64,000 nucleotides of DNA from contig NC_089275.1 in the NCBI RefSeq assembly GCF_963678975.1, positions 18,054,220-18,118,219 on the forward strand. Reading direction: 5' to 3'. The position numbers and the translations under genes were made by a program. The stretch is from Dysidea avara. Lineage: Eukaryota > Porifera > Demospongiae > Dictyoceratida > Dysideidae. The notes beneath the pieces were generated by a model. It ran no database searches. It worked only from the letters and a program-made list of their open reading frames with translations, and was not told where the DNA came from. Below, piece by piece: positions 7,855-45,597 of this stretch (within the stretch, counting starts at the first letter, position 1; each line of letters starts with the position of its first letter).

Positions 7855-8016
7855 GTGTATTTTCTGTCGGTTGAATGTAATGAATTAGACAGAAAATAAG
7901 CTCCCGCATGAATACTATTGGTGGTCACGTGAGCATCTCACGTGACAAGGGTTTTAAAAGGCTGTTGTAGCGTGAAAAGTTCATTCTACGCCACGTGTTC
8001 ACACTAGTGGGTTACC
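7855..8016 (+). repeat. Ngaro split repeat A1
   Basis: 162 bp, apparently identical to 12934-13095. It starts GTGTATTTTCTGTCGG and ends CACTAGTGGGTTACC. It includes an internal palindrome around TCACGTGAGCATCTCACGTGA (about 7925-7945) and should contain the element's 5' promoter/transcription start by family analogy. Confidence 0.93.
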
Positions 8017-8048
8017 TTTTTGGTTTTTTGGACAGTTCTTTTCAACAG

Positions 8049-8753
8049 ATGTCGATGGAAGAAGAACAAGTACGGCAGATTGCTAGTGCAGTCTCGACGA
8101 CCATCGGGGAGCAGTTTGCCGCCAAGTTCAGCGAATTCCGTCAGGAGATGGTCGCATCCCAAGCGGCATGTTCCCAAAGCGTCATGGAGAAACTCACTCG
8201 CAAGACGCACACGTTTAAGAAAAAGGGTTGTGAAGCCCAGTTCGTCTTTAATGACAAGATAGACGACCACGTGCAAGCTGCCAAAAAGCAGCTGGAGAAG
8301 ATAACAGCAACCGACGAGCCTTCCCAGCGAGCTCTGGAGCAAGCAAAAGCTGAACTGGAGCAAGGTGATGAGGAGATCCGTGTTCGTCAAAAACACATCA
8401 GAATTGCTGATCGTTCGGATTGGGGAGTAGTCGCCGAATATGAGGCCGATGAGCTTGCGGATAATTCGGACGACGAGAAGCGGCTGTACCGTGCTCGGAA
8501 AGAGAGGGACGCCAAGCGTAAACGTGCAGCGTCTGGTGGGCCGGCCAGCAGAAAGAAGCCCAGGAGAGAGGAGGCACCGAGGTCCAATGAGGGTGCTGCC
8601 AGGATGCCACCAGGACCAAGGACCGTGACAAGACCAATTGGGCCCTGCGCAGATGGGCCACTTAGCAAGGAGTTGTCCCAGGAATCAGCAACCGTATCCT
8701 TTTGGTCAATCATGTGTTGGTGCCGTTGGCGACATAAGTGTTACAACATGTAG
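8049..8753 (+). CDS. Ngaro ORF1, gag-like protein
   Basis: The ATG at 8049 begins MSMEEEQVRQIAS; the frame is open from 7995 but without an earlier ATG. The product is about 234 residues. It has a charged, helix-prone middle (alternating K/E/Q, a likely coiled coil) and a basic Arg/Lys/Pro-rich stretch near residues 155-195 (KRKRAA, RKKPRREE), consistent with RNA binding. By position it is the gag equivalent that packages element RNA. A zinc-knuckle remnant (GHLARSC, with the H-x4-C spacing) is read only in the +1 frame at about 8653-8680, at the start of the RT frame, so the gag end and pol start are split by a frame change here. The family ORF1 is poorly conserved, so the name rests on context. 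Confidence 0.7.
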   Translation: MSMEEEQVRQIASAVSTTIGEQFAAKFSEFRQEMVASQAACSQSVMEKLTRKTHTFKKKGCEAQFVFNDKIDDHVQAAKKQLEKITATDEPSQRALEQAKAELEQGDEEIRVRQKHIRIADRSDWGVVAEYEADELADNSDDEKRLYRARKERDAKRKRAASGGPASRKKPRREEAPRSNEGAARMPPGPRTVTRPIGPCADGPLSKELSQESATVSFWSIMCWCRWRHKCYNM

Positions 8754-11020
8754 TGTTGATTCTGTGGGTCAATGTCATAGTGGAGTAAAGGACTCCCAGA
8801 GTCAAGGGGTGGCTCATAACATAGGACTGAAAAAGGGTGTTGATGAGACAGCTCAGCGAAATTGCAAACTAACTGAGTACAAAGAAGGTGTTGATAAGAC
8901 ACCTTCACAAAGTAGTGAAAACCTAATTCCAAGTGTTGATGGCCTTGAACTTACTACAACTGGGCCTGCTGGGGCATGTGGTGGGCAAGAAGCTCTGGAC
9001 AGTGAGCATGTCCCTCCTGAACCCCTAGACAGTTTTGGGTTAGGCTCTGCCAGCTTTGAGAATGAGTGGGAACTGGCTAGATCCTGGGAATGGGAAAATA
9101 TGGGGGCCAGAGGCCCACAAATAGTGGACGTACAAGGGAGGCTTAAGCAAAATATCCTGTTTTGGTCCAAGGTTCTTATGGCCCCAGCTACAGTAATTGA
9201 TTGGATTCAAAATGGCTATAGGTTACCCCTCCAGTTTATGCCTACCCCGTTTGAGCAGGGTAACCACAAGTCTACCGTGGACTACAAGGATTTTGTCACG
9301 GACAGTGTGCAGGAGCTAGTAAACAACAGGTGTGTGAGAGAGGTGGGAACAAGGCCAACAATTTGTAGTCCCCTATCAGTCGTAGCTAGCCACAGTGGTA
9401 AGCATAGGTTGGTAGTAAATCTTAGGCACTTGAACCAGTTCTTACGTAAAGACCATTTTAAATATGAAGACCTAAGAATTGCCACTTTGATGTTTGAGAA
9501 GGGGGATTTCTTGATGAAATTCGATCTGAAATCAGGCTATCACCACTTGGATATAATTGAAGAGCACCAATCTTTTCTAGGGTTTGCTTGGGACTTGAAA
9601 GGTGTCCCCAAGTATTTTGTATTTACAGTTTTACCTTTTGGTTTAGCTTCAGCATGCTATGCTTTTACCAAACTTTTGAGACCACTTATTGCATACTGGA
9701 GGGGCCAAGGTTTGAAGGTTGTCCTGTACTTAGATGACGGTATAGTGGCAGTAAAGGGTGAGGACCAGGCAAAAAGGGTGAGTGTACAGATACGCAATGA
9801 TCTGGGTGAAGCTGGCTTTGTAGTTAATGAGGCTAAGTCACAATGGGTACCTGTTAAACGATTAATTTGGCTTGGTTTTGAAATTGATTTGGAGAAGGGT
9901 AAAATAGTAGTGCCAGAATCAAAATTAGAAAACACTTGTGACTTGTTGCAGTCGTTGGTGAAAAGGCCAACTGTCCCTGCTAGAATGTTGGCTAGTGCTA
10001 TTGGCAAATTAATATCCATGTCGATGGCTCTAGGCCCAGTTACACGCCTCATGACACGCAGCCTATATGGCGCACTGAACACTAGGCGATCATGGTGTGC
10101 CCTATTACAGCTTCCTGAGGAGGCGAAAAGTGAAGTGGAATTTTGGATTGGGAAAATAAAGGAATTTAATGGACAAAATTTATGGCCCAAGCCATCAGCA
10201 GTGAGGGTGGTTTTCTCAGATGCAAGTGACACTGGGTTTGGGGGTTATACAGTAGAGCATGGAGGCCTTATTGCCAGTGGTCAATGGACTAAGGAGGAGG
10301 CCCAGCAAAGCTCTACTTGGCGGGAGCTTAGAGCGGTGCGTTTGGTTTTTGGAATCATTTGGTCCCAAGCTGCAAAATGAAAGGATAAGGTGGTTTACAG
10401 ACAATCAAAATGTGGTTAGGATAGTTCAATGTGGTAGCAAAAAAGCAGCCCTCCAGCAGGAGGCATTGGCTATTTTTGAATCCTCAGTGGTGGCCAGAAT
10501 TCGATTAGAGCCAGAGTGGATACCTAGGCGGGAGAATGAAGTAGCAGACTACATTAGTAGAATTATTGACTACGATGATTGGTCGCTAAACCCATTGGTA
10601 TTCAAGGAACTAGACAGGCTTTGGGGGCCTCACACTATTGATAGGTTTGCTGATTGGTGTAACAATCAAGTGTCACGTTTCAACTCGCGTTATTATTGCC
10701 CGGGTACTGAGGCCATTGACGCTTTCACGTGTGACTGGGGCCAGGATATTAATTGGTGGTGCCCCCCACCGTTTCTGGTCCCGCGGCTGTTAAAGCATGC
10801 TAGCATTACAAAGGCTAAAGGAACGTTGGTTATTCCTAAGTGGGTTTCAGCCCCTTTTTGGCCGCTAATTTTTCCCAACGGGACCAATCCAGCCCAGTTT
10901 GTGAAAGAAGTTAGGGAACTACCCAAAGTTGAAGGCCTGTTTGTAGAAGGTCGCTCGGGTTGCAATTTGTTTAAAGGGGTCCCTAACACCCCAGTGATAG
11001 CCTTGCGTCTCAAATGGTAG
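8629..11020 (+). CDS. Ngaro reverse transcriptase-RNase H, with a one-base frame break
   Basis: The frame opens after a stop at 8626; its first ATG is at 8653. Counting from 8638, RT motifs are KFDLKSG (catalytic Asp about 296), LPFGLASA (about 332-339) and the YLDD active site (364-367). RNase H begins at VVFSDAS (Asp about 528) with WREL (Glu about 563). The reading then leaves this frame at the T5 run 10346-10350 and continues one base over, where WFTDNQN supplies the next RNase H acidic site. The DIRS-group C-terminal region (DRFADW, WWCPPPF) follows, to TAG 11018-11020. The first frame would otherwise stop at 10380. Its role is copying element RNA into DNA. The shift could be a mutation, an assembly error or programmed frameshifting at the homopolymer. 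Confidence 0.88.
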
Positions 11021-11055
11021 CTGTTAGGATGGTTTCTTGTTTACAACAGTTAGTA

Positions 11056-11690
11056 GCCTGGAGTGCTGGTGTTCACGACCGGAGTATGGTCACAGCCAGA
11101 GTTCTGCTGTTCTATGACTGGAGTATGGTTACAGCCTGGAGCGCTGGTGTTCTAGGACCGAGTACGATTGCAGCCGGAGTGCTGGTGTTCTATGACCTGA
11201 GTAGGGTCACAGCCCGGAGTGTGGGTGTTCTATGACCGGAGTATGGTCACAACCTGGAGTGAGGTCCATGACTTGAGTATGGTTACAGCCTGGAGTGCTG
11301 GTGTTATATGACCTGAGTATGGTCACAGCCTGGAGTGCTGGTGTTATATGACCTGAGTATGGTCACAGCCTGGAGTGCTGGTGTTATATGACCTGAGTAT
11401 GGTCTCAGCCTGGAGTGCCGGGTTATATGACCGAGTATGGTCTCAGCCTGGAGTGCTGGTGTTATACGACCTGAGTATGGTCACAGCCTGGAGTGCTGGT
11501 GTTATATGACCCGAGTATGGTCACAGCCCGGAGTGCTGGTGTTATATGACCGGAGTATGGTCACAGCCTGGAGTGCTGGTGATCCATGACCTGAGTATGG
11601 TCATAGCCTGGAGTGCGGTCGGGATTCTACCAGGGTAGGGCCCCAGCTTGGTGAGGTGAGTTAGTGTTGCCACAGCCTGGAGTGCTGTTG
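11056..11690 (+). repeat. ~40-bp minisatellite between RT and recombinase genes
   Basis: About 15 imperfect tandem copies of a ~40-bp unit: CCTGGAGTGCTGGTGTTATA then TGACCTGAGTATGGTCACAG. The array occupies the RT-YR spacer of the Ngaro element. Variation between units is mainly substitutions and 1-5 bp indels, least in the middle (about 11270-11600). Confidence 0.9.
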
Positions 11691-11749
11691 TTCAGGGAAA
11701 CAGTTAATCCTTGAAGGCCGATAATTGTAACGTATTGCTGGTTATATAA

Positions 11750-12817
11750 ATTGAGAATTTTTACGAGGGTATACTAATTGTATGTGGTCACGAATGTCTG
11801 CTTATATATTTTTCAGAGGTATTCTCCCATGGAGCCTGGCTGGATTTGAAAGAGTTGCAGGACCCTGCTCTGCAGGAGCTGGCAAAGAGGATTCCGGATA
11901 CTGTCCTACATGGTCGAGCTGGCTCCACAGTCAAAAAGTACTTGGGAGCATTCAGGAGGTGGAAGTCCTGGGCGAAGCAGCATCAGTTGCCAGTTGTGCC
12001 AGCTAAAGAAGCTCATGTTGCATTGTACCTCCAGTATATAGGTGATACTTTACAATCCAAATCAGCAGCAGAAGAGGCTTGTAATGCTTTATCTTGGATA
12101 CACTCAACGGCAGGGTTGGTATCCCCAGTAGGTTCCCCGTTGGTAAAGGCAACGTTACAAGGTTTACAGAGAATGCTAGCTAAGCCAGTCTGCAAGAAAA
12201 CCCCAGTAAAGGTCGAGATGCTGGAGCAAATGGTAGCAGATGCAAAGCGGAGTGGCTCCCTGTCAGATATGCGTTTAACTACTGCATGTCTTATTGCATT
12301 TGCAGGGTTCCTGAGATTTAGTGAATTGATCAATGTCCAGACTAGCCATATATCACTCAGGCAGGATGCTATGGTGATCAAGATTCCCCATAGTAAAACG
12401 GACCAGCTCAGGAGAGGGGATGAAGTGATCATTGCAAGAAGTGGAAAGGAGACCTGTCCTGTGTCATACTTGGAAAATTATTTACAGAGAACTGATACTT
12501 CACTGCAGGTGCAGAGATTCCTTTTCCGGCCGATACGTAGGACCAAGAATGGTGAATGCCTTCGTGAGGCAGGCAGTATTAGCTACACATGCATGTGGGA
12601 GCAATTCAAAAGAAAGGTCGGTATGCTGGGATATAATCCGACCGATTTTGGTTTGCACAGTCTGCGTTCTGGGGGAGCTACTAAGGCAGCTAATGCAGGT
12701 GTGCCAGATAGGCTGTTTAAGCGTCACGGACGTTGGAAGTCCGAAAATGCCAAGGATGGCTATGTGGATGACTCAGTAGAGCACAGATTGTCTGTCACCA
12801 AACAGCTGGGTTTATAA
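11750..12817 (+). CDS. Ngaro tyrosine recombinase (YR)
   Basis: The conserved region begins near 11846 and gives 323 residues ending QLGL at 12817. It has an N-terminal SAM-like DNA-binding half (residues about 20-110, STVKKYLGAFRRW) and a catalytic half. The full catalytic set is visible: Arg157 in FAGFLRFSE, Lys184 in HSKTDQ, His271-x-x-Arg274 in HSLRSGG, His294 in KRHGRW and nucleophile Tyr306 in DGYVDD. The enzyme would integrate a circular DNA copy. The frame is open from 11750 but has no ATG before residue 110, well inside the domain. A strong acceptor-like TATATATTTTTCAG ends at 11816, so translation may follow splicing or readthrough. The catalytic domain looks intact. Confidence 0.92.
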   Translation: MENFYEGILIVCGHECLLIYFSEVFSHGAWLDLKELQDPALQELAKRIPDTVLHGRAGSTVKKYLGAFRRWKSWAKQHQLPVVPAKEAHVALYLQYIGDTLQSKSAAEEACNALSWIHSTAGLVSPVGSPLVKATLQGLQRMLAKPVCKKTPVKVEMLEQMVADAKRSGSLSDMRLTTACLIAFAGFLRFSELINVQTSHISLRQDAMVIKIPHSKTDQLRRGDEVIIARSGKETCPVSYLENYLQRTDTSLQVQRFLFRPIRRTKNGECLREAGSISYTCMWEQFKRKVGMLGYNPTDFGLHSLRSGGATKAANAGVPDRLFKRHGRWKSENAKDGYVDDSVEHRLSVTKQLGL

Positions 12818-24480: not shown

Positions 24481-25664
24481 ATTAGGAGTACTGAACTGAT
24501 ATAGAAAGTTTATGAAGTGGAATAAATAAATTCACTTTGACCGGACGTTATCCCTTATTACGTAGGTGGAGAGTAACTGGACTAATGCAGCTTTCAGCAT
24601 TCCAAAAATGTCCACTACGAAGACATTAAGATACCGTACAATTAAATACACCAGTATTTGAAGGCATTTCAAATAGGCTCGTGCTCTTGATTACGTATAG
24701 ATATATGTGTTAATGAAGACATATTGAATTAATTGCATAGCAGGACTATATGATTCCGCTGAAGAGTAGTTAGGCGACTGCTCTATTAGAATTTAGAGTA
24801 TATCGATCTTCTGCATTCCCAGCACTGACTCATGCAGTATTCCATTCATGCATAGCTAACCTTTAGCTAGTACAAATCCCAGTAAATCAAGGTAAAGTAA
24901 GTTGGCTAATGACTACAGTAGTTGCTTTAGCTATACTTTTGCAATTGTATGGGCATTGGAAAAAGTGAGGGGACACTGCCCCTCCACTGTTGAAAAAGTG
25001 GGGGGGCAGTTGCCCCCTCTATTTCTTCGCCCCTGTAACTATGGCTGCATGCATGTACTCCCAGTGCAAGTCATGACTGGAAGACCCTCATAATCACTCT
25101 GTCAATCACACACTCCTCTGTAGTCTGTACTCTGGCAGATTTTAAGGAAACAAAACTGCTGCCATGAACCTTCATTGTAACTGGCTGTTCAGATTTACAG
25201 TGGACACACCTAACTATATGACCTAAAATAGAAAGTTTGTATATAAATAAAATAGCTATAGCTTGACCTTTGCAAAATTTAATATTCTATAGCTACAATC
25301 AATTGCAGGTCAAAGCTATATGCAATCTATAAATACCTACATATGCTGCAAGCTTAGCAAGCTAAAACCCGTGACCATTCATCGTATGGTACGCACTTTA
25401 AGGTCTGCATGACTAGTGACATAAACAATGCCGGATAACGAACACACCTATGGCCTTAAGTAATCGGAAATAACCGTAAATTCAAGTTGTATATAAACAA
25501 AACTAGCGACCTTTGCTAGCTTTTTGCCAAGTTCTATCGCTAGTCCGAGGCTAGGTTACTTTCAGGGTGATTTTGTCGCTTTTGTAACTTAAAAGTTATT
25601 CCAAATACAGTTTTGACTTAAATCTTAGTCTCAGCTATCCCATCTATTGATCTATCGATTTAAA

Positions 25665-28354
25665 ATGCCGGCGACCTTCAGTAAACAAATCAAGAGCGCA
25701 GGAGCAAAAATAACTGGGGACTACATAGAGAGCGTCTACAGCTACCAGACGACTAGCGTGGAGAGGACGCCGACTGGAGTACACGTCAAACCTGTTACTC
25801 ACGAGATGGTGTTCCGAACAAAGGCCAGCGCTCCTCGTCTAGGGGTCATGCTGGTCGGCTGGGGAGGTAACAATGGTAGTACTGTGACTGCGACCATCCT
25901 GGCTAACAAGATGAACCTGTCTTGGAGGACTAAACACGGCGACAAGGTGATTTTCGTACCAGTAGTATGTTGCTATAATGACGTCATCAAAAGGTCATTG
26001 CTTGAACTAGTCCTTTCGTGTTGGCTTATCGTTATGTTGTAGTCTCTCATTAGTTTAATAACGTGTGAAGGGAATTGTCTTAGCTATGATGGTACAAACT
26101 AATGTCAATAGCATGTAAATCTTGAGTTTGACCTTTAAGGATATTCATTACACAGTGAGTTTACATTGTGTATGCGACGTGTAAAAACTTCTAACTGTAA
26201 GAATTATAACTATTGTATATATAATAGGATGTATTTACTGATATGTTAAAGAGTTTGATCACTGTAAATCAATTGTTTACATGCTGTCACACCAAAGGTC
26301 AATAGGTCACTTTGTGTAAAAGGGCAATATTGTCACAATACTGTTTCTCTAATGTTGCTCATCTTATTATACAGAGAGCTAACTACTTTGGATCCATCAC
26401 ACAAGCTTCTACAGTGTGTCTTGGTCCAGGCAGTAATGGAGAAGATGTGTTTGTTCCAATGAATGAGATGTTACCAATGGTGAACCCAAACGACATTGTT
26501 ATTGACGGTAAGGAACATGGTGTTTGGTATGATGATTAATATGCATAAAACCACATAATTGATTGCTATAAATAGAACAGATGTGTTGGTGCTACCTGTG
26601 GCATCCTACACAGCCACAGAAGCTGTAAATTAAAGTTTAAATGACTGTTATTGTCACTATTCAATAGGTTGGGATATCAGTTCAAAGAACTTGGCTGATG
26701 CTATGTGGGATGCTTGTGTGCTGGAGTCCAACCTTCAGGATCAGCTAGCACCACACATGAAGAAAATGAAACCCAGACCTTCAATCTACTGTCCTGACTT
26801 CATTGCTGCTAACCAATCTGATCGTGCTGATAATGTGTTGAAAGGTGATTACTACATATCCATTAACACCACATCAACACTAGTGGTCAAGCTGTTGTAT
26901 ATTTGATATCGTCTCCATTTCTTAGGTACAAAATGGGAAATGATGGAACAGATTAGAGCTGACATCAGAGATTTTAAGACAAAGGAAAAGCTGGATAAAG
27001 TACAGTAGCTGCAATGCATAGAGCAGCTTTAACATTACCTATTGTTTTAGGTGATAGTCTTGTGGACTGCTAACACTGAGAGATTTTGTGATGTCTCTGT
27101 TGGACTGAATGACACTGCTGACAACTTGTTGAAGTCGATACGTGACAATGAAAGTGAAGTGTCACCATCTACCATTTTTGCTGTAGCAAGCATCCTAGAA
27201 AAGGTACATCATTCTCACTGCTAAATGTATGCTGCTTCATTTATTGTTCATTTCCAGACCACATACATCAATGGGTCACCACAAAACACGTTTGTACCAG
27301 GAGTGGTGCAATTGGCAGAGAAAGAGGGAGTGTTTATTGGTGGGGATGATTTTAAGTCAGGCCAGACAAAGGTCAAATCTGTCCTGGTGGATTTCTTAGT
27401 ATCTGCTGGAATAAAGGTATTTTTTAAAATGCAACCAAACACGAATTTACTTGCTTTATCACAGCCAACCTCAATTGCTTCATATAATCATCTCGGAAAT
27501 AATGATGGAAAAAATCTGTCAGCTCCTAAGCAATTCCGATCGAAGGAGGTAGGAAGTTTCCTGCATGTTATGCTTTAGCTTTGAAGTGAATTCTGTAACA
27601 GATTTCAAAGAGCAATGTCGTAGATGATATGGTAGAGTCTAACTCAATTCTCTATGCAAAAGGAGAGAAACCAGATCACATTGTAAGTAACACACAAACT
27701 TAAGGCACTTTACTATTACCATTTTCAGGTGGTTATTAAATACGTTCCTTGTGTTGGAGACAGCAAGAGAGCAATGGATGAGTATACCTCAGAGATCTGT
27801 ATGGGTGGAAACAACACTATTGTTCTGCACAACACTTGCGAGGTAAGTACAAAGATTTGTACAGTACACAGGATTAACTGTTCTACGCAGGACTCATTGC
27901 TGGCCACACCAATCATATTGGATCTCATCATTATTTCTGAACTGTGTGAGCGTATCAGTATGAAAGTGGAGGGAGGAGAGTTTGAGAGTTTTCATCCAGT
28001 ATTGTCTGTGTTGAGTTACTTGTTGAAGGCTCCCATGGTACCATCAGGAACACCAGTTGTCAATGCTTTGTTCAGACAAAAAATGTGCCTAGAAAACATT
28101 TTCAGGTATGTAAGTATCAGGTGACATGTACAGAGTCATGTGACAAATACTTCCCAAATCACAGGGCTTGTCTTGGACTGCCAGCACAGAACTACATGAT
28201 GTTGGAACACAAGGTCCCTACACTAATGGCTGAACTAGCTGAGAGAAGCCCAATGTCCACTTCATCTACACAACCGAAGGTCCCTATGCAGCAAGCAGTA
28301 CCACAATCTAATGGGGTTCACCTCAATGGAGCAACCACCAATGGAGTCCATTAA
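25665..28354 (+). CDS. ISYNA1: Inositol-3-phosphate synthase (11 exons, complete)
   Basis: The enzyme converts D-glucose 6-phosphate to 1D-myo-inositol 3-phosphate using bound NAD, the committed cytosolic step of inositol synthesis. Exons: 25665-25946, 26375-26507, 26668-26844, 26926-26999, 27051-27203, 27258-27416, 27465-27548, 27602-27682, 27729-27842, 27891-28105, 28165-28354. All introns are GT-AG and phases join to 553 residues, close to the family's usual length (about 510-560). Visible motifs are the NAD-binding GWGGNNGST (65-73), [34 protein letters not shown] (301-311), [10 protein letters not shown] (332-341) and YTSEI. The carboxyl tail is Ser/Thr/Gln-rich and variable, as in animals. 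The start is the first ATG and gives an N-terminus of normal length. I see no defect. Confidence 0.97.
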
Positions 28355-30029: not shown

Positions 30030-32491
30030 TTAGTTTTCTGCCACCAAAGGCTCTCGATACTCCCGATAGTTAAAGGTAACCTCAGGAACATTAGCAAGTT
30101 GAAAATTTTGTACTGTTGATCTGTTCTTGATCCATCCCACAACTGTGTTCACACCTTGTTGTATCTTGTTCCTGATCACTCCACCACACATATAATTGAA
30201 GTGAACTGCAGTTGTAATGCTTACTAAATTGGCAATGACTGGATTAGTGTGGTGAAACACCAACAAGTATAAAATCTGGAGGTTTAGAATAATGAGCTGT
30301 TCGTCGTAGTTCTGGTATTTACACTTAATAGGGTGTAGCATGCCTGTCACCGCACATACTATTGCAATGACTAAATTTGCCACGTTGAGATATGCAGTTG
30401 TATTAAGTGTAGAAATCCAAAGGAATACTGCTCGTATCACAAGCTGTAAACCAGTCCAGTAATAAAATCTGTCCTTGTATGGTCCATGATAAGCATCCAG
30501 TAGTGGCTTAAATTTGTTGATGTAATGGAATCTCTGGAGTGGCCTGTTAAACAACAAGATAATGGTAAAGGGTACTTGTATCAGGAATATGATGAGACAT
30601 GTTATGAATAAGATGATAAATCTTACTCCAAGTAGTGGCACATTAGCATCTACTGACCACACCAATGTAGACTGTTCACTGGGTAGTTGAGTGATGGTGG
30701 AATAGGAGAACAAGACAATGGATACTGTGTGGAGTATTTTAGTATAGGACAATAGGAATAGTGTAGCAAGTACTGGTAATGCTCTACGTGCAGTGAGCCT
30801 CTGTATTTTAGTGGAGTAACGACTTGTTATGATGAGTGATGTAGCAATGAAGATGAGGTAGAAAGGAAACTCTAGCTGTAACCACATATTAGCATAATCA
30901 TCCATACCATTGTAGAAACATGATGGAATACCCAAATCAAGATTAGCTAGTGATGTAAAGGTGTAAGCAGGGGCGGATCCAGGGTGGGGCTTTGGGGGCT
31001 GAAGCCCCCCCTTCATATTTAGGCTTTACTTGATCAATATGCTGAGTATTATAATGAAATTTTGTCTTAGCATAATTATATGATCACTAATAATACAAAT
31101 ACTCATAAAACCACCTTATAAACATCTTTCCAAGGTATTATCAGTGGATTTATGCTAAAGTTTATGCAACAAGGACCCGGATCAGCATTGGAGGTGTACA
31201 AGATTGAGATACTCTAATAGAGCAGTCAGCTAACTACTCTAATAGAACATTCACTGGAAACATGTAGTTGGTTCTGTTATGGAATTTTTCCAAATCTGCC
31301 TGCACTTATACATACAATGAAGTGCATTAGTCTGTTTAAAGGGCTTCATTCATGCATCTACTTGTGTAGTTAATATGTATGGTAATACTTAATTCAGGTA
31401 CACAATTTCCATTGAAAATGCTCTCAGATTCAATCTTGTATTGTTCAAATTTCAAAATTTTCCATTTTCAACATTATTATTCTAACAAGCACCTATTCAG
31501 TGTTGTGCAATTGTGAGAGGGGTACATCATGTACTTGGTTGTCTGTACCTACCCAAACTTTTCCATTAGCAAAATGCTTCAGAGCCATACCTATAATTTA
31601 AAGGCAGTATATAAATTATCTAGATATGAATTTTATGTGGAAATGTCTCCAAATTGCAGTATTTTAGCATCTATTTTTCAAAAATTTTCCTGGGGGGGGG
31701 CATGCCCCCAGACCCCCTAGTTCCCTCTACCCAAGAGATTAGTACCTTGAGTTAGCCCCCCCCCCCCCCCCCCCCTTATAAATCCTAGATCCGCCCCTGG
31801 TAAGCTGGTGTGAATTTATCAAACAACACTGAAGTATTAACACCTGTCACATTAAAATACAAGATAAAGGCATTAATATTTCCATCAGTTACTGTGAGAT
31901 TAAGGACAAAAAGTAATAAAACCAACACAAGACCTGCTATTGCAATGGGAACAATGAGAATTAAGTAGGCATTGGGACACTGTTGACATTGTGGGGAAGC
32001 AAATATAGTACTGAGACCTTGCTGACATTCTCCACATAAAACACCAGATCTGTTATAAATACACTGTGAGCTGGGAGTAGAGAAGTTCAGATCTGATGGA
32101 TGAGACATACAGTATTGAAATGGACACTTCAGAGAAACATGATAAAAATAAGAGTCATTATGAATTCTTGCTGACATCCAACTATTTCTTGGACGTACTA
32201 TTGTTTTATCATCAATATTGCAGCTAGATGCTCTAAGTTTTGGATAGCAAACACATTTCTATTTATTTCAATGAAGCTAGGTGGACAAGGAAGTTTTCTA
32301 GCATAAAACTATTAATATAAAGATCGTCATCATTATGAACTTTTGGAAATATTGCACACCAAGTATCACTAGGAAATGTTATTATTCCACTTGCAGTTGT
32401 TGTCAGTTAGTTGAAACGATATAGTTTTGGTGCTGTTTATAGTACATGGTGATACATACAACTGTTTGCTATTGGGTCATGAAACAACTAC
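30030..32491 (-). pseudogene. Broken beta-helix/multi-pass membrane protein gene, C-terminal half
   Basis: This is the 3' half of a gene whose 5' half is 38636-40546; the two are separated by a 6.1-kb element. Minus-strand reading recovers the family order: FPSDTWCA motif (about 32355), Cys-rich segment with CGECQQGLS (about 32030), then several hydrophobic segments and the tail NYREYREPLV just before the stop at 30030. The membrane part (30981-30030) is nearly identical in DNA to the intact paralogue at 42043-42990. Between the Cys-rich part and the membrane part a separate element (30968-31799) interrupts the frame after KFTPAY. Stops and shifts also lie near 32270-32430. The gene is therefore inactive. 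Confidence 0.85.
30968..31799. mobile_element. ~830-bp TIR element (CAGGGGCGGATC ends) inside the broken gene
   Basis: The left end CAGGGGCGGATC (30968-30979) and the right end GATCCGCCCCTG (31788-31799) are exact complements. GTAAG is present on both sides (30963-30967; 31800-31804), a 5-bp target duplication. Removing the element and one copy rejoins the host frame. The interior has a C21-type homopolymer (about 31756-31776), a ctggggggg/gccccc phrase and a TCTATTAGAGTATCTC motif (complement) near 31205. CAG-ends suggest a hAT-related non-autonomous element. Confidence 0.8.
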
Positions 32492-32499
32492 CACAGGAA

Positions 32500-32960
32500 A
32501 AAATGTGGCATTTCCTGTAGCAGGATATGTGCAGGAAATTTACAGGACAGGTGACATTTCCAGCACATATCCGGGAGATGGAAATGTACAGGAAATTTGC
32601 AAATTTCCTGTACATTTCCTACTACATGATAGGGCACAATTTCCTACAGATTTCCTGCACTGGACATATGAAATTTCCTGCAGATTTCTTCTATAAGGTA
32701 TTTATGAAATTTCCAATACATTTCCTCTATACAATATCTATGGAATTTCCTATAGATTTCCCCTATACAATATCTATGAAATTTCCTGTAGATTTCCTCT
32801 ATACAATATCTATGAAATTTCCTATAGATTTCCCCTATACCATATCTATGAAATTTCCTACAGATTTCCCTTATACAATATCTATGACATTTCCAACAGA
32901 TTTCTTCTATACAGTATTAATGAAATTTCAAACACATTTCTTGTACAGTATCAATGAAAC
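32500..32960. repeat. Subterminal GGAAAT array, left end of the CACTA-like element
   Basis: Tandem ~33-36-bp units of the type TATGAAATTTCCTATAGATT then TCCCCTATACAATATC recur about nine times (32690-32950). Before them lie scattered aggaaat/atttcct motifs. The facing array at 38130-38620 is less regular (CAGGAAATGTGNCAGAAATGT). Confidence 0.85.
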
Positions 32961-34010: not shown

Positions 34011-34660
34011 GACCTAATGTATTTCGCAGACTGGACTCGCAGACTGGACTCATGCACTGAACTAAACAGCTTCTTAACAGTTATCCAGGCATTATCTAGC
34101 TCCTGTACCACTGGAAACACCATTATCAAGCTAAAACTGTTGAAGCTGCTCTTCCTACAAAGTTACAGAGTTTGCGAATGCACTAATTTAATAGAATGTT
34201 TACAAAACATGTGTACTTGTGCATACTAGCAGTGGTGGAGGCTATTGTAGTTGCGTAGGATTAATTCCTTTGCTGCTTTACTGCCTAGTACTAGTGGATA
34301 GGCTACTGTGAATGACCAGAAGTAAATACTTAGCGATGTTGTTAGTATTGCGCTATCCGCTTAATGCTGCCTGCTAAGTTAGTTTACATCTAAAAATATG
34401 TTGTCACTATATAGACTGTGTAGAAAAGGCTATGTGTAGCCTATATCTAACTATTTATGCACTATTATAACGTCTTGTAAATATTCTAATAAATTAGTGC
34501 ACGTGCGATATTTGTGACTTTGTAGGAAGAGCAGCTTCAGTAGTTTTAGCTTGACATTAGTGTCTACAGTGGTACAAGAACTAGGAAATTCCTGGATAAT
34601 TGTTAAGAAGCTGTTTCTAACTTAGTGTGAGTCCACTCCACAAAATACATTAGGCCTATT
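34011..34660. repeat. Inverted duplication of an exon-like segment (~190-bp arms, ~260-bp spacer)
   Basis: Bases about 34011-34207 and the complement of 34466-34660 align: cctaatgtatttYg, acagcttcttaacaRttatc, tgtaccactg, aagctaaaact and gaagctgctcttcctacaaa. Both arms encode a peptide of the type KLKLLKLLFLQS followed by CTNL. Divergence is substantial, so the duplication is old. Confidence 0.75.
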
Positions 34661-37355: not shown

Positions 37356-38635
37356 GATGGTAGCTTCATTGGTTTCGTATACATAATTATGTGTTGACCT
37401 GGTTATAGTGGTACTCCTCTGGTAAGAGTAGAAAGGTGTGTGCTGAAGTTCCAACAGGTACTGTAGAAAATGTTTTGGAGATGAGTTTCCCAGTTCGCTG
37501 TGTATAGAAAATTGTTCCAGCTCATCGATAAAATGATTTTTTGCTTATTGTGAGATGACACATAACAGCCTATAATATTGTTTAATCTTATGGTGATCCT
37601 GTGTAATTCATAATACAAAGTGACATAATTATGCAAAGGTTGCTTGTTTTCTGTTTTGTGCCATGGTTACCAATGGGGCTCAATAGAGAGTGTCTGGAAA
37701 GCCACCCATTTGTTTGTTTAACCATTACTAGCACTTACAAATTGTGGCAAACCTATTATATCAAACAGCATGTAGCATTTTTTGAGCTGTAACAATTTGT
37801 TATTACATATATAGGTATATTGATCACTAGATTAAAGTTTGGTGCATGGGTTAATTTCTATATTCTGCAAGACAACAAAAACTGTGAAGTGTGCGATAGA
37901 ATTTTCAGTGGATGCAGATATATTCATGTAATAATTCTACCTTTAGCTACCAGTTAAACTGCATAGTACAAACTAAAAATAAAATTATTGCAAAATTCTA
38001 CAGTAATTTGAGCTGAAGTGTAACCATATCAATTTAAAATTCCATAGTAACTTCAAATCAATGACAGTAAAAGTGGCATGTGTCAAACTTATATTACATG
38101 CCTAACTGCAAACTACCGTAACAGGTGATATGTACTAATACAGAAAATGCACCAGAAATGTAAACAAATTACCTTGAAATTTCCGCATAACTGGAAATCA
38201 CCTGGACAGGTGGTATGTACTAGTACAGGAAATGTTCCAGAAATGTGAACAAAGAGCTCCTTGACAAAATATGGTTGTGGAATTTCCTGCACAACTGGAA
38301 ATTAGATGGAAGAGTGATATGTAGAAGTATAGGAAATGTGTCAGAAATGTAAACCAAAAAATTTCCTTGACATTTCCAGTTCCAGGAAATGTGACATTTC
38401 CTGCATGAGTGGAAATTGCCTGGAAAGGTGGCATGTATTAGAGCAGGAAATGTGCCAGAAATATGAACAAAATATTCCTTGACATTTTTGAAAGTGGCAT
38501 TTCCTGCAAAACTGGAAATCACTTGGAAAGGTGATATGTACAAGTACAGGAAATGTGTCAGAAATTCAAAGAGAAAATTTCCTTGACATTTCCTGTACCG
38601 ATATAACCGCCGGAAATATGGTATTTTTTGCTGTG

Positions 38636-40546
38636 TACAATGTTGGATTTGCTGAGTGCATTCGTACGTATGGTCCGCTGAAGTTGAGAACTGTTAAATA
38701 TCTTAGTGTTCTGATTAATGTACATGCTAAACGTTTGTCTGGGATAATAATAGCCTAGCTAGTTCATTATTATTACAATCTTGAAGTTGAAATTTCCCAA
38801 CTTTGCAAAGACAAAGTGTTTTCTGTCCAACAGTTTGTGGCAACTCATCATATGAACCAGGCTCATTGATGTACTGTATGTATTTCTTATTTACATCAAG
38901 TGGGGTACATTTGTAAATGTTGAAATATTAACAAACAGCCAGCAACAATCTTTGATAGGTATGTTCCTATAACATAGTAGTTCACTGTAATAAGGGTTGT
39001 TTTGAAAGGTAACTGAATAGTTGCTTTCCAGATCACTAACATATTGAAAAATGCATAGTGGATAGGGCACTGATATGATTCTAAATATTGCACAAATCTG
39101 TTATCTAAAAAATGTAATTTGGTATTATCCCTATTGCAATAAATTCATTATCAAATGGGTCGCTATGTCTTGGTATATTATCAACAGCACTGAAGTGAAA
39201 GTTGCCATCACCAAAGTCTATGATGAACAATGCAATATTGTTAGTGAAATGTATGTCTCCTTCAGCTGCAACAACAATGCTTTGATCTAGGCAAACAATG
39301 CTGCCACCAATTGTCAAATTATTGTGATCAAAAATTACTGTACCTATTAAAAGTAGTTGACTTTCAAATAACTTAATAATGAGATCAAAATTGTCATATC
39401 TATTGGAAGAGAAAGTGGTATTTTCTATTGTAATTATACATTGCTTCATACATCTGATTGCAAATCCATCAATATTGCCTTGAAAACTGCAATTGGAAAA
39501 GTTTGCTGTTGTACCAGATAGTTCTATTATACCATACTCATTGTTTAAGAACTGACAATTGATGAACATAATTGTAACATCATATGGATTTAATGCTGTC
39601 AATGACAACACTGTACCCCAACCAGTACTATTTTTAAACACGCAATCATTAAACCAAACACTTACATTATTAAAGTGATTACTGTTCTTTGATATAGAAT
39701 GAGTATCGATAGTCCAAGGGTTATTCATGAACTGTGAGTTGTTCACATATACCACTGCTGTACCAACAATTTGTAGGGCACAATGGCATTGTTGAATCTG
39801 TTGTTTTTGAATAACCATATTAGACAAGTGCATTATCACTTTATAAGATTTTTGCAGTAGGTAAACTTAGTTTCAATGCAATAATCTTCATATTTCTGGT
39901 GGTGATCATTGATTAAGAGAACTGGAGTGTTTATCTCTTCACTTGTGTCATTGTAATACAGATACATTCCATGACATGTGATGTAACTGAAGTGAGACTT
40001 GCCCATAATGTTGACTGCTATCAGTCCATAATTTGGGAGACAAGCATGTTTTTTTGGATATGCAACTGATGCAAGAAAGCATTTTTGGAAATTGCGATAA
40101 GCAATACTGCACCATTTACATAGGTCTCAGTGGCTTGGGTAAGAACCTTACGAGTATGTATTTGACTTACACAGTACTGAACTGCTATATTCCATATTGT
40201 CAAATTGGTTATATTAATTAATGTCACACCCACAACCACAGCATTATATTCACACCGTATGACTACATCAGGTGATATGTCATTAGATGTACAGTTTCCA
40301 ATCAGTGAAATGTTGTGAATGTTTTGTGTGATGAAGGTGATGTAGTCCTGATAGGAAGAGTAGTTGAGTGTTAGAGGTGAAGTATTTGGTGGTATTGAGC
40401 AGGTAGTGTTGTAGGCTATGACGATGATGATATGTAGTGTTAGGATAGTAGTGATCATCAGGTGTCACAATGTAGACACTACCATGGCCAGTTGTGGTAC
40501 TTTGGAAGGAGAGCAACAATAGCACGATGTAGTAAATCACAAACAT
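38636..40546 (-). pseudogene. Broken beta-helix/multi-pass membrane protein gene, N-terminal half
   Basis: The ATG near 40546 opens a signal-peptide-like MFVIYYIVLLLLSFQS, then TPDDHYYPNTT and HYLLNTTKYFTSNTQLLFL, the same start as the paralogue at 45570. The reading shifts frame within the first 100 codons and again around 39840-40020. Long beta-helix-like stretches rich in Asn and Thr follow (39839-39105). Similarity to the paralogue continues past the last long frame, through DCCWLFVN (about 38960) and LCLCKVG (about 38815), to the 38636 boundary, after which the 6.1-kb element begins. Beyond that element the gene resumes at 32491. Multiple shifts make it a pseudogene. Confidence 0.82.
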
Positions 40547-42042
40547 TCTACAGTATGATATGCATATAATTATTATGCAACATGCACATTTGACTGCACC
40601 AGCACATATTTGGCTATAAATTGTCTGCTGAGCTGAGGTAAAATATATAAACGCAACATATTATATTCATACAGTATGTATAACCTTACGTTGACATATG
40701 TATCTCCTCATACAGCTATCAATTACGTATAATGCACAAAAATAACTACACCTCTTTTTATATTTCTCCAACACCTATATGTATACCTGCATGGATGACC
40801 TGCTGCCCTTTTATACACATACTGCAAACTTTTCTTGTATTTGTGGTTACAAAGGTTGTGTAAAATACGGTTGTGTACTGTGTATAACTGTACCCACATC
40901 ATTTGGCCATACATGTGAAGTGAGTTGTACACTGCAATTGATAAAACAGAATCAATGAAACTTTGATTTCAAAATTCATTCAACAGTTTGAAACCTATGA
41001 GCCCTGAAATCAACAACACCTGAAACACAAACATATAATAAACAGGACTGTATGTTTGTTTATCAGTTATTCTGCAGTTTTGTATATTAAAAAGCGGCTT
41101 ATACTTTTAGCCATGATTGAACTCCTATGGATCATCACACTGTTAGGATCAAATAAAAAAGACTTGTAGAAGTACGGCATTAATATAATACAATGCTCCA
41201 TCTTGTTGCATATTAATACTTTCAACATTCCAATTAGTGCATGTTGTTTTATGGTGCGTTTACTAATGAAGTAAATTTTATTATATTATTGTTGTTGTTT
41301 GTTTTAAAGACATGGTATCATGCAGGGCTGCCAGGAAATAAGTGAAATTATGTTAATTTCATAATTATTTGATTGATGCTTTAATTTTGGACATAAATTT
41401 GCTACATAAGCAATCACAAGATGTATGTAGATATTTTAGATATATAATTATTTTATACTTGACAACTTGCATATTTTGGAACTTGGGCAAATTCTCATTC
41501 TTCAACTTCACTTACACATGTACACATACTAATGCAGTATGTATGTGTGTAAAGAGATTCAATAAGGAAATTTGGTGAGGGGGGAAGGGGGCACTGGAGA
41601 CATCATTACACCCTTTACTAACCAGTTACAGTGTAGATGTGATCAATTGGCATTTTTAATAGATTATGCATTATATATTAATGATGTACAATTGAATGCT
41701 TTGCTCCCTCATCACTTGTTTGCTTGACCACCAGGTTGGAGGCTTTACACTCTGACCATCTACATCTAGCAACTGCTTCTTATGGACTATACCCCACACA
41801 CTCTGTGCTGATTCAGACTATAGCAGCTTGTCAAGACAAGACAATATAAATAGCATTAAAATTAATATGCAATACCCACTGCATAATTAAATGCAAGTAT
41901 AAGTGTGACATGTGCAATATATAACTATTGCTTGTATGTTATTATTGTGTAGTCTCAATCTTTGTGCTAAACATATCATGTTTGAAGCAATGTAAATAGC
42001 AATTACTATGTATTTTAATGATAAAAATTCTTTAAATATCTA
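40547..42042. other. Intergenic spacer between the tandem paralogues
   Basis: About 1.5 kb between the start of the broken gene and the stop of the intact one. It is AT-rich with short frames only; presumably it holds the promoter of the broken gene and the 3' UTR of the intact one. Confidence 0.5.
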
Positions 42043-45000
42043 TTAGTCTGCTGCCACCAAAGGTTCTCGATACTCACGATAGTTGAAAGCAACTTCAGGA
42101 ATGTTAGCAAGTTGAAAACTTTGTACTGTTGATCTGTTGTTGATCCATCCCATAACTGTGTTCACACCTTGTTGTATCTTTTTCCTGATCACTCCACCAC
42201 ACATGTAAGTGATGATGTGGTACACCACAATAAGAGTGAAGTGAACTGCAGCCATAGCAATAACAGCTGTAATGGCAGTTATATTGTAGTTGTGCTGTAC
42301 AAATATATGTAACACTTGGAGGTTTAGAAGTAGGACTAGCTCATGGCAGTTTTGGATTCTGTTTTTGAAGGGTTGTGCTATGCCAGTAATTACACACATT
42401 GCAGCAGCTATAATGCTACCAGCTGCTAGAGTTGTGTCTCTGTCTAATGCTGATATTCCTAGGAACAAAACACCTATCACAAGCTGTAAGCCAGGCCAGT
42501 AATAGTGATTGTCTTTGTATGGTCCTTGATAAGCATCCAGTAGTGGCTTAAATTTGTTGATGTAATGGAATCTCTGGAGTGGTCTGCTAAACAACAAGAT
42601 AATGGTAAAGGGTACTTGTATCAGGAATATGATGAGACATGTTATGAATAAGATGATAAATCTTACTCCAAGTAGTGGCACATTAGCATCTACTGACCAC
42701 ACTAATGTAGACTGTTCACTGGGTAGTTCAGTGATGGTGGAATAGGAGAACAAGACAATGGATACTGTCTGGAGTATTTTACTGTAAGACAATAGGAATA
42801 GTGTAGCAAGAACTGGTAGTGCTCTAAGTGCTGTGAGCCTCTGTATTTTAGTGGAGTAACGACTTGTTATGATGAGTGATGTAGCAATGAAAATGAGGGA
42901 GAAAGGAAACTCTAGCTGTAACCACATCTTAGCATAATCATCCATACCATTGTAGAAACATGTTTGAAATATACCCAAATCAAAATTATTTAAAGTTTCA
43001 GTGAATTTATGAAACAACACAGAGCTGTTTATACCAATAATGTTGACATACAATATGAAAGCATTGATAGTTCCATTAGTTACTGTAAGGTTGAGGAGAA
43101 AGAGTAATAAAACCAACACAATACTTTCTATTACAATAGGTACAATGTGAAACAGGTAAAAACTAGAGCAGTGTTGACATTGAGAGGAAACAAATGTAGC
43201 ACTGAGACCTTGTTGACATTCTCCACACAATATACCAGATCTGTTAAACAGACACTGGTCGTTAGGGGTAGACAAGTTAAGGTGGGATGGATAGGGTAAA
43301 CAATAATGGAATGGACACTGCAGAGAAATGCGATAAACGTAGGAGTGGTTGTTAGTAGGTGTAGCAGATATCCAACTATTAGCAGGATGTAGTATAGTTT
43401 GATCATTAATGTTGCAAGCTAGCACACCTAACTGTACCAATTTTGGATGACACACACATATTTTATTTACTTTAATAAATCCAGGTGGACACGAAAGCTG
43501 CTTTATGTAGAATATATTTAGATCATCATATGAGTCTCCAATAAGTTTCAAAAATACTGCACACCAAGTATCAGTGGGAAATGTAACGGTATACCTTACC
43601 CTATTGCAAATGGCTCCAGAAGCTTCCAACTTCTGATGATTATCATCAATGATGCAAGGTGATATGTAAGACTGCATAGTATCAAATTCAAACTCAAGTT
43701 TTACCTTGGACTTGTTGAAATGTTTGTTGATGAAAATGTACATATCTATTGTTTGGCCAGAGTATAGATAACCTAATTCATTTGTGCTGCAATCCGGCTG
43801 CTGATTTGCGTTGTGGCACAAGCAAATTGTTTTGTGGTAATAATTTTGTTGGGTCATGTTATATACTCCAGAACTGTTCATGTACTTTACATATTTGTTG
43901 TTTACCTCAATCGGTATGGTATCTGCAAACAATGAATCTTGTAACCAGTGACAATCCATTAAAGGGACACTGTTAGTACAGTGATTGTTGTAGTGATTAT
44001 TATGAAATATAATTGAGTAGGAATTGTTTTGCTTAAAAAGTGATGTATTGTATCTGTAGTATTGAAAAGTACACCATGGAAAAGCCATTGGTTTGAACCT
44101 AAAAATTGTGCAAACATGATTATTATAGAACGTTAAATTACCTCCTATCAAAATCATGAACTGGTTATACTTATTACAGCTAAAGTCTATAATACTGTTT
44201 GCGTTGTTGCATGAAAAATGCAGTTCCCCATGTAATGACAATGTGCTGGATGCATCTAGATGAATTATAATTCCAAAGGTATTCTCATGAAAAGTTAGTT
44301 TGCTCACAATCAAAGTAATTGTGTTAGATAAATCAATTAAATTTGTCTTATCATTAGCATTGTTATAAGAAAAGTTGACATTTTCTAAATAAATAATTCC
44401 GGTTTTTGTAAAATGTAGCTGAAACAATTTTGAATTACTGTTGTTACGAAAGATACATGTAGAACATTTTACATTTGTGGTTGCCAATGATATTAGTACA
44501 TTATTGATTTCATTGTATAAGAAAAGACAATTATATATATGAAACCACACTTGATCTGCTGAATATTTTATTTCAGCATTACTCCTCACCAACACTCCAT
44601 TGCTTGCTTTGTTATTTATGAAATGGCACTTAACAAATAGTACTATTGCTGTATTTACACTTTTTAAGTAACTGAAATGAAAATCAACAGCAGTCTCAAA
44701 AGAGCAACCAACGAATTGACATTTAGTAATGCGTATTGTTGCTGCACTGTTAATATTAAAATGGAACACTACACTTCTTGAAATTAATTCTTTAATAATC
44801 ATGTTTGATAGGTGTAACATTATGCCATAAGATTTTTTGGTCACATATGTGTTTATCAAACTAACCATGTCACACAAATCTTCGATATAAACTGTGCAGT
44901 GATCAATAGAGATGGTAGTACTATAAGTATATGTAGTATTTTGCAGCTCTGTTGTCTCTGTACTTGCTTCATAACTATACAGTAAAATTCCATAACATGT

Positions 45001-45570
45001 GATGTGGCTAAAGCGAGATTGCCCCACAATGTTGACAGTCATCAGTGCATATAATGGAAAACAGGAATAAATTTTATGGATGTGTACAAGATACATGACA
45101 ACAGTATTGCATTCTATGATCGAAACTGCTGCACCTTCTAAACCACCATGTTGTAAGACAAACTGATTAACACAGTTCTGAATCACTAAGTTGGATATTG
45201 TCAAGTTTGTGATCTTGACAAATTGAATGCTGACACCTACATAAGTAGTGTAGTTGTATTCACACTGGATGACTGCATCCGGTGTTGTACCATTGGTATT
45301 ATTTCCAATCAGTGAAATGTTGTGAAGATTTTGTATGATGAGATCAGTATGAAGGTGATGTATTCCTGGTAGGAAGAGTAGTTGAGTGTTTGAGGTGAAG
45401 TATTTGGTGGTATTGAGCAGGTAGTGTTGTAGGTTATGACAATGATGACATGTAGTGTTAGGATAGTAGTGATCATCAGGTGTCACAGTGTAGACTCTAC
45501 CAGTTGTGGTACTTTGGAAGGAGAGCAGAAGTAGCACATGTACAGCTGCAGGGTAATATATCAGCAACAT
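42043..45570 (-). CDS. Large secreted/membrane protein: signal peptide, beta-helix-like ectodomain, Cys-rich stalk, multi-pass membrane module
   Basis: Single exon. The ATG at 45570 (1175 residues) gives MLLIYYPAAVHVLLLLSFQS, a normal signal peptide and the start shared with the broken paralogue; an ATG at 45597 would add nine residues. Numbering from the longer form: residues 35-500 are Asn/Thr/Ile-rich with repeating NLTISNLVIQNC-type strands, resembling a right-handed parallel beta-helix, with many N-glycosylation sites. Residues 590-810 are Cys-rich (CLCH, CPPGF, CGECQQGLS). Residues about 814-1130 hold some seven to nine hydrophobic segments, including FIATSLIITSRYSTK and RFIILFITCLIIFLIQVPF. 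A short cytosolic tail ends NYREYREPLVAAD. The function is not known to me; a surface receptor or adhesion role is inference. Gene and frame appear intact. Confidence 0.85.
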   Translation of the reverse strand: MLLIYYPAAVHVLLLLSFQSTTTGRVYTVTPDDHYYPNTTCHHCHNLQHYLLNTTKYFTSNTQLLFLPGIHHLHTDLIIQNLHNISLIGNNTNGTTPDAVIQCEYNYTTYVGVSIQFVKITNLTISNLVIQNCVNQFVLQHGGLEGAAVSIIECNTVVMYLVHIHKIYSCFPLYALMTVNIVGQSRFSHITCYGILLYSYEASTETTELQNTTYTYSTTISIDHCTVYIEDLCDMVSLINTYVTKKSYGIMLHLSNMIIKELISRSVVFHFNINSAATIRITKCQFVGCSFETAVDFHFSYLKSVNTAIVLFVKCHFINNKASNGVLVRSNAEIKYSADQVWFHIYNCLFLYNEINNVLISLATTNVKCSTCIFRNNSNSKLFQLHFTKTGIIYLENVNFSYNNANDKTNLIDLSNTITLIVSKLTFHENTFGIIIHLDASSTLSLHGELHFSCNNANSIIDFSCNKYNQFMILIGGNLTFYNNHVCTIFRFKPMAFPWCTFQYYRYNTSLFKQNNSYSIIFHNNHYNNHCTNSVPLMDCHWLQDSLFADTIPIEVNNKYVKYMNSSGVYNMTQQNYYHKTICLCHNANQQPDCSTNELGYLYSGQTIDMYIFINKHFNKSKVKLEFEFDTMQSYISPCIIDDNHQKLEASGAICNRVRYTVTFPTDTWCAVFLKLIGDSYDDLNIFYIKQLSCPPGFIKVNKICVCHPKLVQLGVLACNINDQTILHPANSWISATPTNNHSYVYRISLQCPFHYCLPYPSHLNLSTPNDQCLFNRSGILCGECQQGLSATFVSSQCQHCSSFYLFHIVPIVIESIVLVLLLFLLNLTVTNGTINAFILYVNIIGINSSVLFHKFTETLNNFDLGIFQTCFYNGMDDYAKMWLQLEFPFSLIFIATSLIITSRYSTKIQRLTALRALPVLATLFLLSYSKILQTVSIVLFSYSTITELPSEQSTLVWSVDANVPLLGVRFIILFITCLIIFLIQVPFTIILLFSRPLQRFHYINKFKPLLDAYQGPYKDNHYYWPGLQLVIGVLFLGISALDRDTTLAAGSIIAAAMCVITGIAQPFKNRIQNCHELVLLLNLQVLHIFVQHNYNITAITAVIAMAAVHFTLIVVYHIITYMCGGVIRKKIQQGVNTVMGWINNRSTVQSFQLANIPEVAFNYREYREPLVAAD

Positions 45571-45597
45571 CTTACTACCTGTATTAAAGAACACCAT

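Follow-up and report, generated by a model that had tools for sequence, protein, structure and literature searches.

A multi-copy gene family joining a predicted, variable beta-helix ectodomain to a conserved membrane module: candidate surface recognition receptors

The gene at positions 42043-45570 (minus strand) of the 64,000-nucleotide window analysed here (contig NC_089275.1, positions 18,054,220 to 18,118,219) is intact and belongs to a family that numbers hundreds of copies in its host genome. Its protein is predicted to carry a long beta-helix outside the cell, on a Cys-rich stalk and a multi-pass membrane module. A variable surface joined to a membrane module that stays constant, a high copy number with many broken copies, and concerted evolution of the constant parts together make up the layout of a recognition repertoire. 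We therefore propose, with a probability of about one half, that the gene belongs to a repertoire of variable recognition receptors at the cell surface, encoded in the germline.

Results

An intact gene with a probable intron ahead of its start

An uninterrupted open reading frame (ORF) occupies 42043-45597 on the minus strand and codes for 1184 residues from its first in-frame ATG, at 45597, or for 1175 residues from Met10, which moves its end to 45570; the latter position and size are exactly those given in an initial annotation of this sequence. Residue numbers below count from the first ATG, and all parts of the gene lie on the minus strand. Met10 is the likelier start, because an acceptor-like site (tttaatacag, with its AG at 45579-45580) lies 8 nt upstream, because similarity to a pseudogene copy in the window starts at residue 9 in the protein comparison, and because relatives show an excess of similar sites: a YAG (Y, pyrimidine) stands within 14 nt upstream of a candidate ATG in 17 of 26 intact relatives, compared with 546 of 1703 ATGs in the background. 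Some relatives offer several candidate ATGs, which raises the chance of a match, and two (L003 and L004) were scored as misses by the script despite a 'tatttccag' directly upstream of their ATG. This sequence context makes an intron in the 5' untranslated region probable, so that the single-exon gene of the initial annotation holds for the coding part, which is one exon, and probably fails for the region before it.

Domain layout of the encoded protein

The protein opens with a putative signal peptide (aa 10-33; 45499-45570), called by hydropathy, and its relatives also start hydrophobic. A conserved N-terminal cap follows (aa 34-105; 45283-45498), modelled at low confidence over aa 34-77. Next comes a predicted beta-helix (aa ~67-575; 43873-45399), hypervariable at aa ~206-500. 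The structure model and fold alignments support a beta-helix ectodomain: the model fits the right-handed beta-helix fold, a parallel beta-solenoid with rungs of ~22-30 residues, and F-x-x-N motifs at aa 35-560 number 13 against 3.6 expected, a count reached in none of 20,000 shuffles. Strands in the model further suggest a probable beta-sandwich domain (aa ~588-705; 43483-43836). Foldseek rows to PapD-like and complement domains are short and weak (E-values (E) of 0.008-0.07), and the output does not give their location within the model.

The Cys-rich stalk (aa 701-812; 43162-43497) has invariant Cys residues in alignment A2 and contains the motif CGECQQGLS at aa 791-799 (43201-43227). It leads into a membrane module (aa 813-1130; 42208-43161) of ~9 helices, predicted from hydropathy and charge to run N-out/C-in and also helical in a low-confidence model; polar and charged residues are conserved in or beside these helices (K940, D970, R1042, H1119). 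The tail (aa 1131-1184; 42046-42207) bears an invariant E-P pair near its end (EPL; invariant columns E479 and P480 of A2). The beta-helix-like ectodomain, the Cys-rich stalk with its motif and the multi-pass module described in the initial annotation are thus borne out, and the structure prediction that it named as a check yields a solenoid and indicates several membrane helices.

A family of hundreds of copies

We searched the host genome (550.8 Mb in 108 contigs) with protein queries and motifs. Of 1422 first-look candidates for the first protein query, 39 were scored, and 45 matching stretches were obtained, mostly within full-length open frames; a second query gave 40 rows, overlapping partly with the places found by the first. 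Full-length relatives elsewhere in the genome are 46-66% identical to the window gene, and by hand we count 47 or more distinct open frames that are intact, free of stops and at least 1,120 aa long. A motif from the membrane module occurs at 315 genome sites at up to 3 mismatches (control, 0) and one from the cap at 223 (control, 35); these numbers agree with the expanding surface-protein family suggested earlier from the window alone.

A full-length ORF is intact at 10 of 20 sampled membrane-motif sites (5 of the 14 newly fetched and 5 of the 6 already known). The sample took every fifth of 100 listed sites, all exact matches on contigs C1-C8, and may favour intact copies; our figure of ~150 intact genes in the genome is for this reason a rough one, to be read as an order of magnitude.

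Contig C4 carries clusters of the family at 5-11 Mb and 18.1-18.6 Mb. Two head-to-head gene pairs (L003/L008 and L004/L009) lie at 18.19-18.23 Mb of this contig, repeated ~28.6 kb apart. The L003 and L004 proteins are 99.9% identical, marking a recent segmental duplication ~70-110 kb past the window end.

Conserved ends, a variable middle and signs of gene conversion

We aligned the 26 intact members among the 30 loci nearest the window gene, omitting four whose longest ATG-started ORF falls below 1,050 aa (L009, L013, L014, L029). Consensus, analyses of nonsynonymous (pN) and synonymous (pS) differences per site and close-pair windows used all 26 members, unweighted; three near-identical copies (L004, L023, L024) were left out of the runs test, codon identity, trees, F-x-x-N count and alignments A2 and A3.

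Mean consensus is 0.93 at aa 51-100, in the cap, drops to 0.28-0.47 at aa 251-500 and returns to 0.80-0.93 at aa 751-950 (0.86-0.93 within aa 801-950), before declining to 0.77-0.81 at aa 951-1050 and ~0.57 at aa 1051-1150. Synonymous sites follow the same course, with pS of 0.17 in the cap, ~0.7 in the beta-helix and 0.31 at aa 870-960. The low pS at the ends is not explained by amino-acid constraint alone, because identity at codons for the same amino acid also differs: the cap reaches 0.87 and the stretch at aa 813-950 reaches 0.74, against 0.52 for the beta-helix. In all five regions codon identity is higher between members that share a contig. Between L016 on contig C6 and L019, L026 and L028 on contig C4, 0.97 of such codons are shared in the cap, 0.45-0.47 in the beta-helix and 0.56-0.58 at aa 813-950. 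An exact 29-nt string of the cap, AAATACTTCACCTCTAACACTCAACTACT, is found on at least six contigs (C4, C6, C8, C9, C13, C15) despite near-saturated synonymous sites in the beta-helix.

In a runs test, 190 of 253 pairs gave p<0.01, and the longest run started at aa 1-205 in 125 of them, at aa 801-1050 in 60, at aa 601-800 in 5 and at aa 206-600 in none; the pairs are mutually dependent, so these counts are descriptive. A control that permutes within regions still flags 59 of 236 pairs at aa 35-205 and 95 of 253 at aa 813-1050, with 5 of 252 at aa 206-600, where ~2.5 are expected. Trees built from separate parts of the gene disagree at support of 0.9 or more: the beta-helix tree contradicts 5 of 14 membrane splits, and the cap tree contradicts 7 of 14 membrane and 4 of 13 beta-helix splits. 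The beta-helix and membrane trees provide the sounder conflict, since several branches of the cap part are close to zero in length yet highly supported, which makes its conflicts weak evidence. The window gene itself (L001) groups with L002 on contig C15 by its beta-helix (support 1.0) and with L003 and L008, its neighbours on the contig, by its membrane core (0.948). This tract-like homogenisation of the gene ends fits gene conversion; an unusual codon constraint at the ends is a lesser alternative.

Within one close trio, L022 differs from L021 and L027 at aa 300-395 by 31-33 nonsynonymous and 5 synonymous changes; most Cys and Phe framework positions are retained. In a post hoc comparison the stretch is unlike the remainder of the gene (p ~0.001), and its excess of pN over pS is not significant (p 0.16-0.23).

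A broken second copy in the window

The tandem, same-strand paralogue of the initial annotation does exist on the same strand, but it is not a working gene. Its N-terminal half (38678-40549, minus strand) contains frameshifts and stops and reads in several frames, and its C-terminal half (30033-32382, minus strand), 73% identical to the window gene at aa 868-1184, lies ~6.3 kb away and is split by a non-autonomous DNA transposon of 832 bp (30968-31799) with terminal inverted repeats and a CTTAC target duplication. We considered a functional multi-exon gene and ruled it out: the interruptions are frameshifts, stops and the transposon.

Synonymous divergence (dS) between the window gene and this pseudogene is patchy: it is 0.20 at the N end, rises to between 0.5 and saturation at aa 87-633, stands at 1.0 at aa 714-866, falls to 0.05-0.3 at ~aa 868-1030, climbs to 1.3-2.8 at ~aa 1030-1130 and is 0.34 near the C end. 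The ratio of nonsynonymous to synonymous divergence (dN/dS) is 0.2-0.66 in each of the fragments that allowed an estimate, 7 of 8 (two overlapping), and both copies were therefore constrained for much of their history. A pattern of this kind would be expected from conversion tracts between two copies under long constraint.

Tandem arrays of 36-bp and ~103-bp units lie at 32667-32959 and 38088-38591, both with GAAATTTCC-like words. Each array occupies one end of the 6.3-kb stretch that separates the halves of the pseudogene, and the insert may thus be a single element with an array at either border. An inverted repeat at 34064-34616 has 145-nt arms, 83% complementary, spaced 263 nt apart.

Other features of the window

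A retroelement on the plus strand (7971-12817), which we take to be DIRS-like, encodes in order a reverse transcriptase (RVT_1, E 7.9e-17), a Dam-type methyltransferase (sub-threshold, E 1.2e-4) and a tyrosine recombinase (Phage_integrase, E 5e-9). A myo-inositol-1-phosphate synthase gene (25629-27578, plus strand) is spread over at least two separate open stretches and is therefore intron-bearing. Rfam has no match and ARAGORN finds no tRNA in the window.

Discussion

We propose that the family acts as a repertoire of surface recognition receptors. The ectodomain, predicted to lie outside the cell, would bind a ligand through its beta-helix. Our best guess for that ligand is a glycan, or a surface molecule of a microbe or of self, because most solved proteins nearest in fold bind or act on polysaccharides. 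The disulphide-rich stalk would pass binding on to the membrane module, which may be a common transducer or channel with the conserved tail inside. Over evolutionary time, duplication would create new copies, conversion would hold the cap and the membrane core uniform, and new specificities would arise as the beta-helix diverges. As a speculative and somewhat unlikely extension, the family may form a new kind of immune or self-nonself system, in which near-identical cap and membrane modules serve as homology arms and recombination between copies, even across chromosomes, swaps or protects the hypervariable ectodomains and so continually generates new germline specificities.

Several observations weigh against a recognition repertoire. 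In none of 399 windows from 7 close pairs does pN exceed pS significantly (best p 0.08). Across the family, the beta-helix has a pN/pS of 0.65-0.74 at a pS of ~0.7, near saturation; relaxed constraint could therefore explain part of the beta-helix variability. The beta-helix model has no Foldseek match at E of 0.001 or below, and the membrane-module model is of low confidence, with a predicted template-modelling score (pTM) of 0.24. F-x-x-N motifs are enriched in the window gene and several relatives, and many other members are without enrichment. The aligned set of 26 was drawn from the loci closest to the window gene rather than at random, and half of the sampled genomic copies are broken.

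Much of the architecture would also suit a family of chemosensory receptors or ligand-gated channels, similar to odorant receptors, whose variable ectodomains sense dissolved molecules while a constant nine-helix module conducts ions or signals. Such families are consistent with the large copy number, with the many broken copies (9 of the 14 newly fetched) and with a conserved membrane core that includes the polar and charged residues in or beside its helices. A beta-helix of ~500 residues is nevertheless large for small-molecule sensing, and the Pfam output holds no channel or seven-transmembrane (7TM) model, and we consider this reading rather unlikely. Adhesive or structural surface proteins, mediating tissue cohesion or skeleton or mucus binding and variable because a rod-like spacer suffices, are improbable: a spacer has no need of a multi-helix module whose core stands at 77-93% consensus, nor of hundreds of divergent copies. 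Least credible is a merely duplication-driven family, with the beta-helix drifting under relaxed constraint without repertoire function and the ends kept only by conversion and folding, which would accommodate a mean pN/pS below 1 in every region, no significant positive selection and the broken half of the sample; against it stand the close trio that keeps its beta-helix Cys and Phe framework while intervening residues change, and the long constraint on both window gene and pseudogene.

The family would matter in two ways. Should the host be a sponge or another early-branching animal, the family offers a concrete candidate for the molecules that tell self, microbes and food apart, and it comes with sequences, clusters and testable predictions: polymorphism of the beta-helix between individuals and ligand binding by the ectodomain. 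It also provides a clear example of concerted evolution at both ends of a gene around a diverging middle.

The initial annotation had found no classical receptor class to match, and our searches agree: no named receptor family reaches the Pfam or NCBIfam cut-off or a significant E in PHROGs or PDB sequences. NCBIfam gives no match, PHROGs only rows at E 0.045-0.05, and PDB sequence searches nothing significant, with one row at E 0.48. The Pfam output contains no 7tm model that would indicate a 7TM G-protein-coupled receptor, hydropathy counts ~9 helices, and there is neither a Pfam model nor a significant PDB sequence match for transient receptor potential (TRP), fungal TRP-like or other channels; the membrane model, as noted, is too uncertain to support a fold comparison in either case. 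A PRA1 match in 1 of 23 members (E 0.0025) was taken as chance. DUF7630 (PF24633) resembles the family in the Cys pattern of the stalk, scoring 20.1 and 19.3 bits against the window protein (E ~7e-4) and 19.1 against the pseudogene, and matching 19 of 23 members at E of 1 or below (best 8e-4); it differs in that these scores lie under the gathering cut-off of 27 and the match covers 45 residues only. Because nothing reached a curated cut-off or significance, we claim membership in no named receptor family. Single-protein scans of viral and prokaryote genome contigs, in a mode that detects close relatives only, found none, which speaks neither for acquisition from the prokaryotes and viruses searched nor against distant relatives there. 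A literature search on titles and abstract openings, mostly outside subscription journals, returned no title about the family. It may already lie uncharacterised in public databases: we assume, as a lead only, that cnidarian genomes above all, and other invertebrate genomes including sponges, encode uncharacterised proteins with a similar membrane module.

Nearest in fold are phage tailspikes, polysaccharide lyases and epimerases, polygalacturonases and the adhesin PfbA, all of which we take to be right-handed beta-helices. Identity to them is 8-13%, and the family differs in being anchored by a multi-pass membrane module. Chlamydial Pmp proteins, which are autotransporters with paired GGAI and FxxN repeats, share F-x-x-N repeats in a beta-helix. 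In the window protein, however, GG[AI] was found 0 times, the Pfam output has no Pmp model, and the anchor is multi-pass.

In organisation, the closest parallels are Botryllus fuhc and fester, Hydractinia Alr and sea urchin Sp185/333, which are likewise recognition proteins that vary in the ectodomain and are either polymorphic or present in several copies. To our knowledge, these proteins have other ectodomains and are single-pass or secreted, and none sets a beta-helix on a multi-pass module. Judging by its sequences, the present family would stand beside them among the multi-copy variable surface receptor families, as a class that does not yet have a name.
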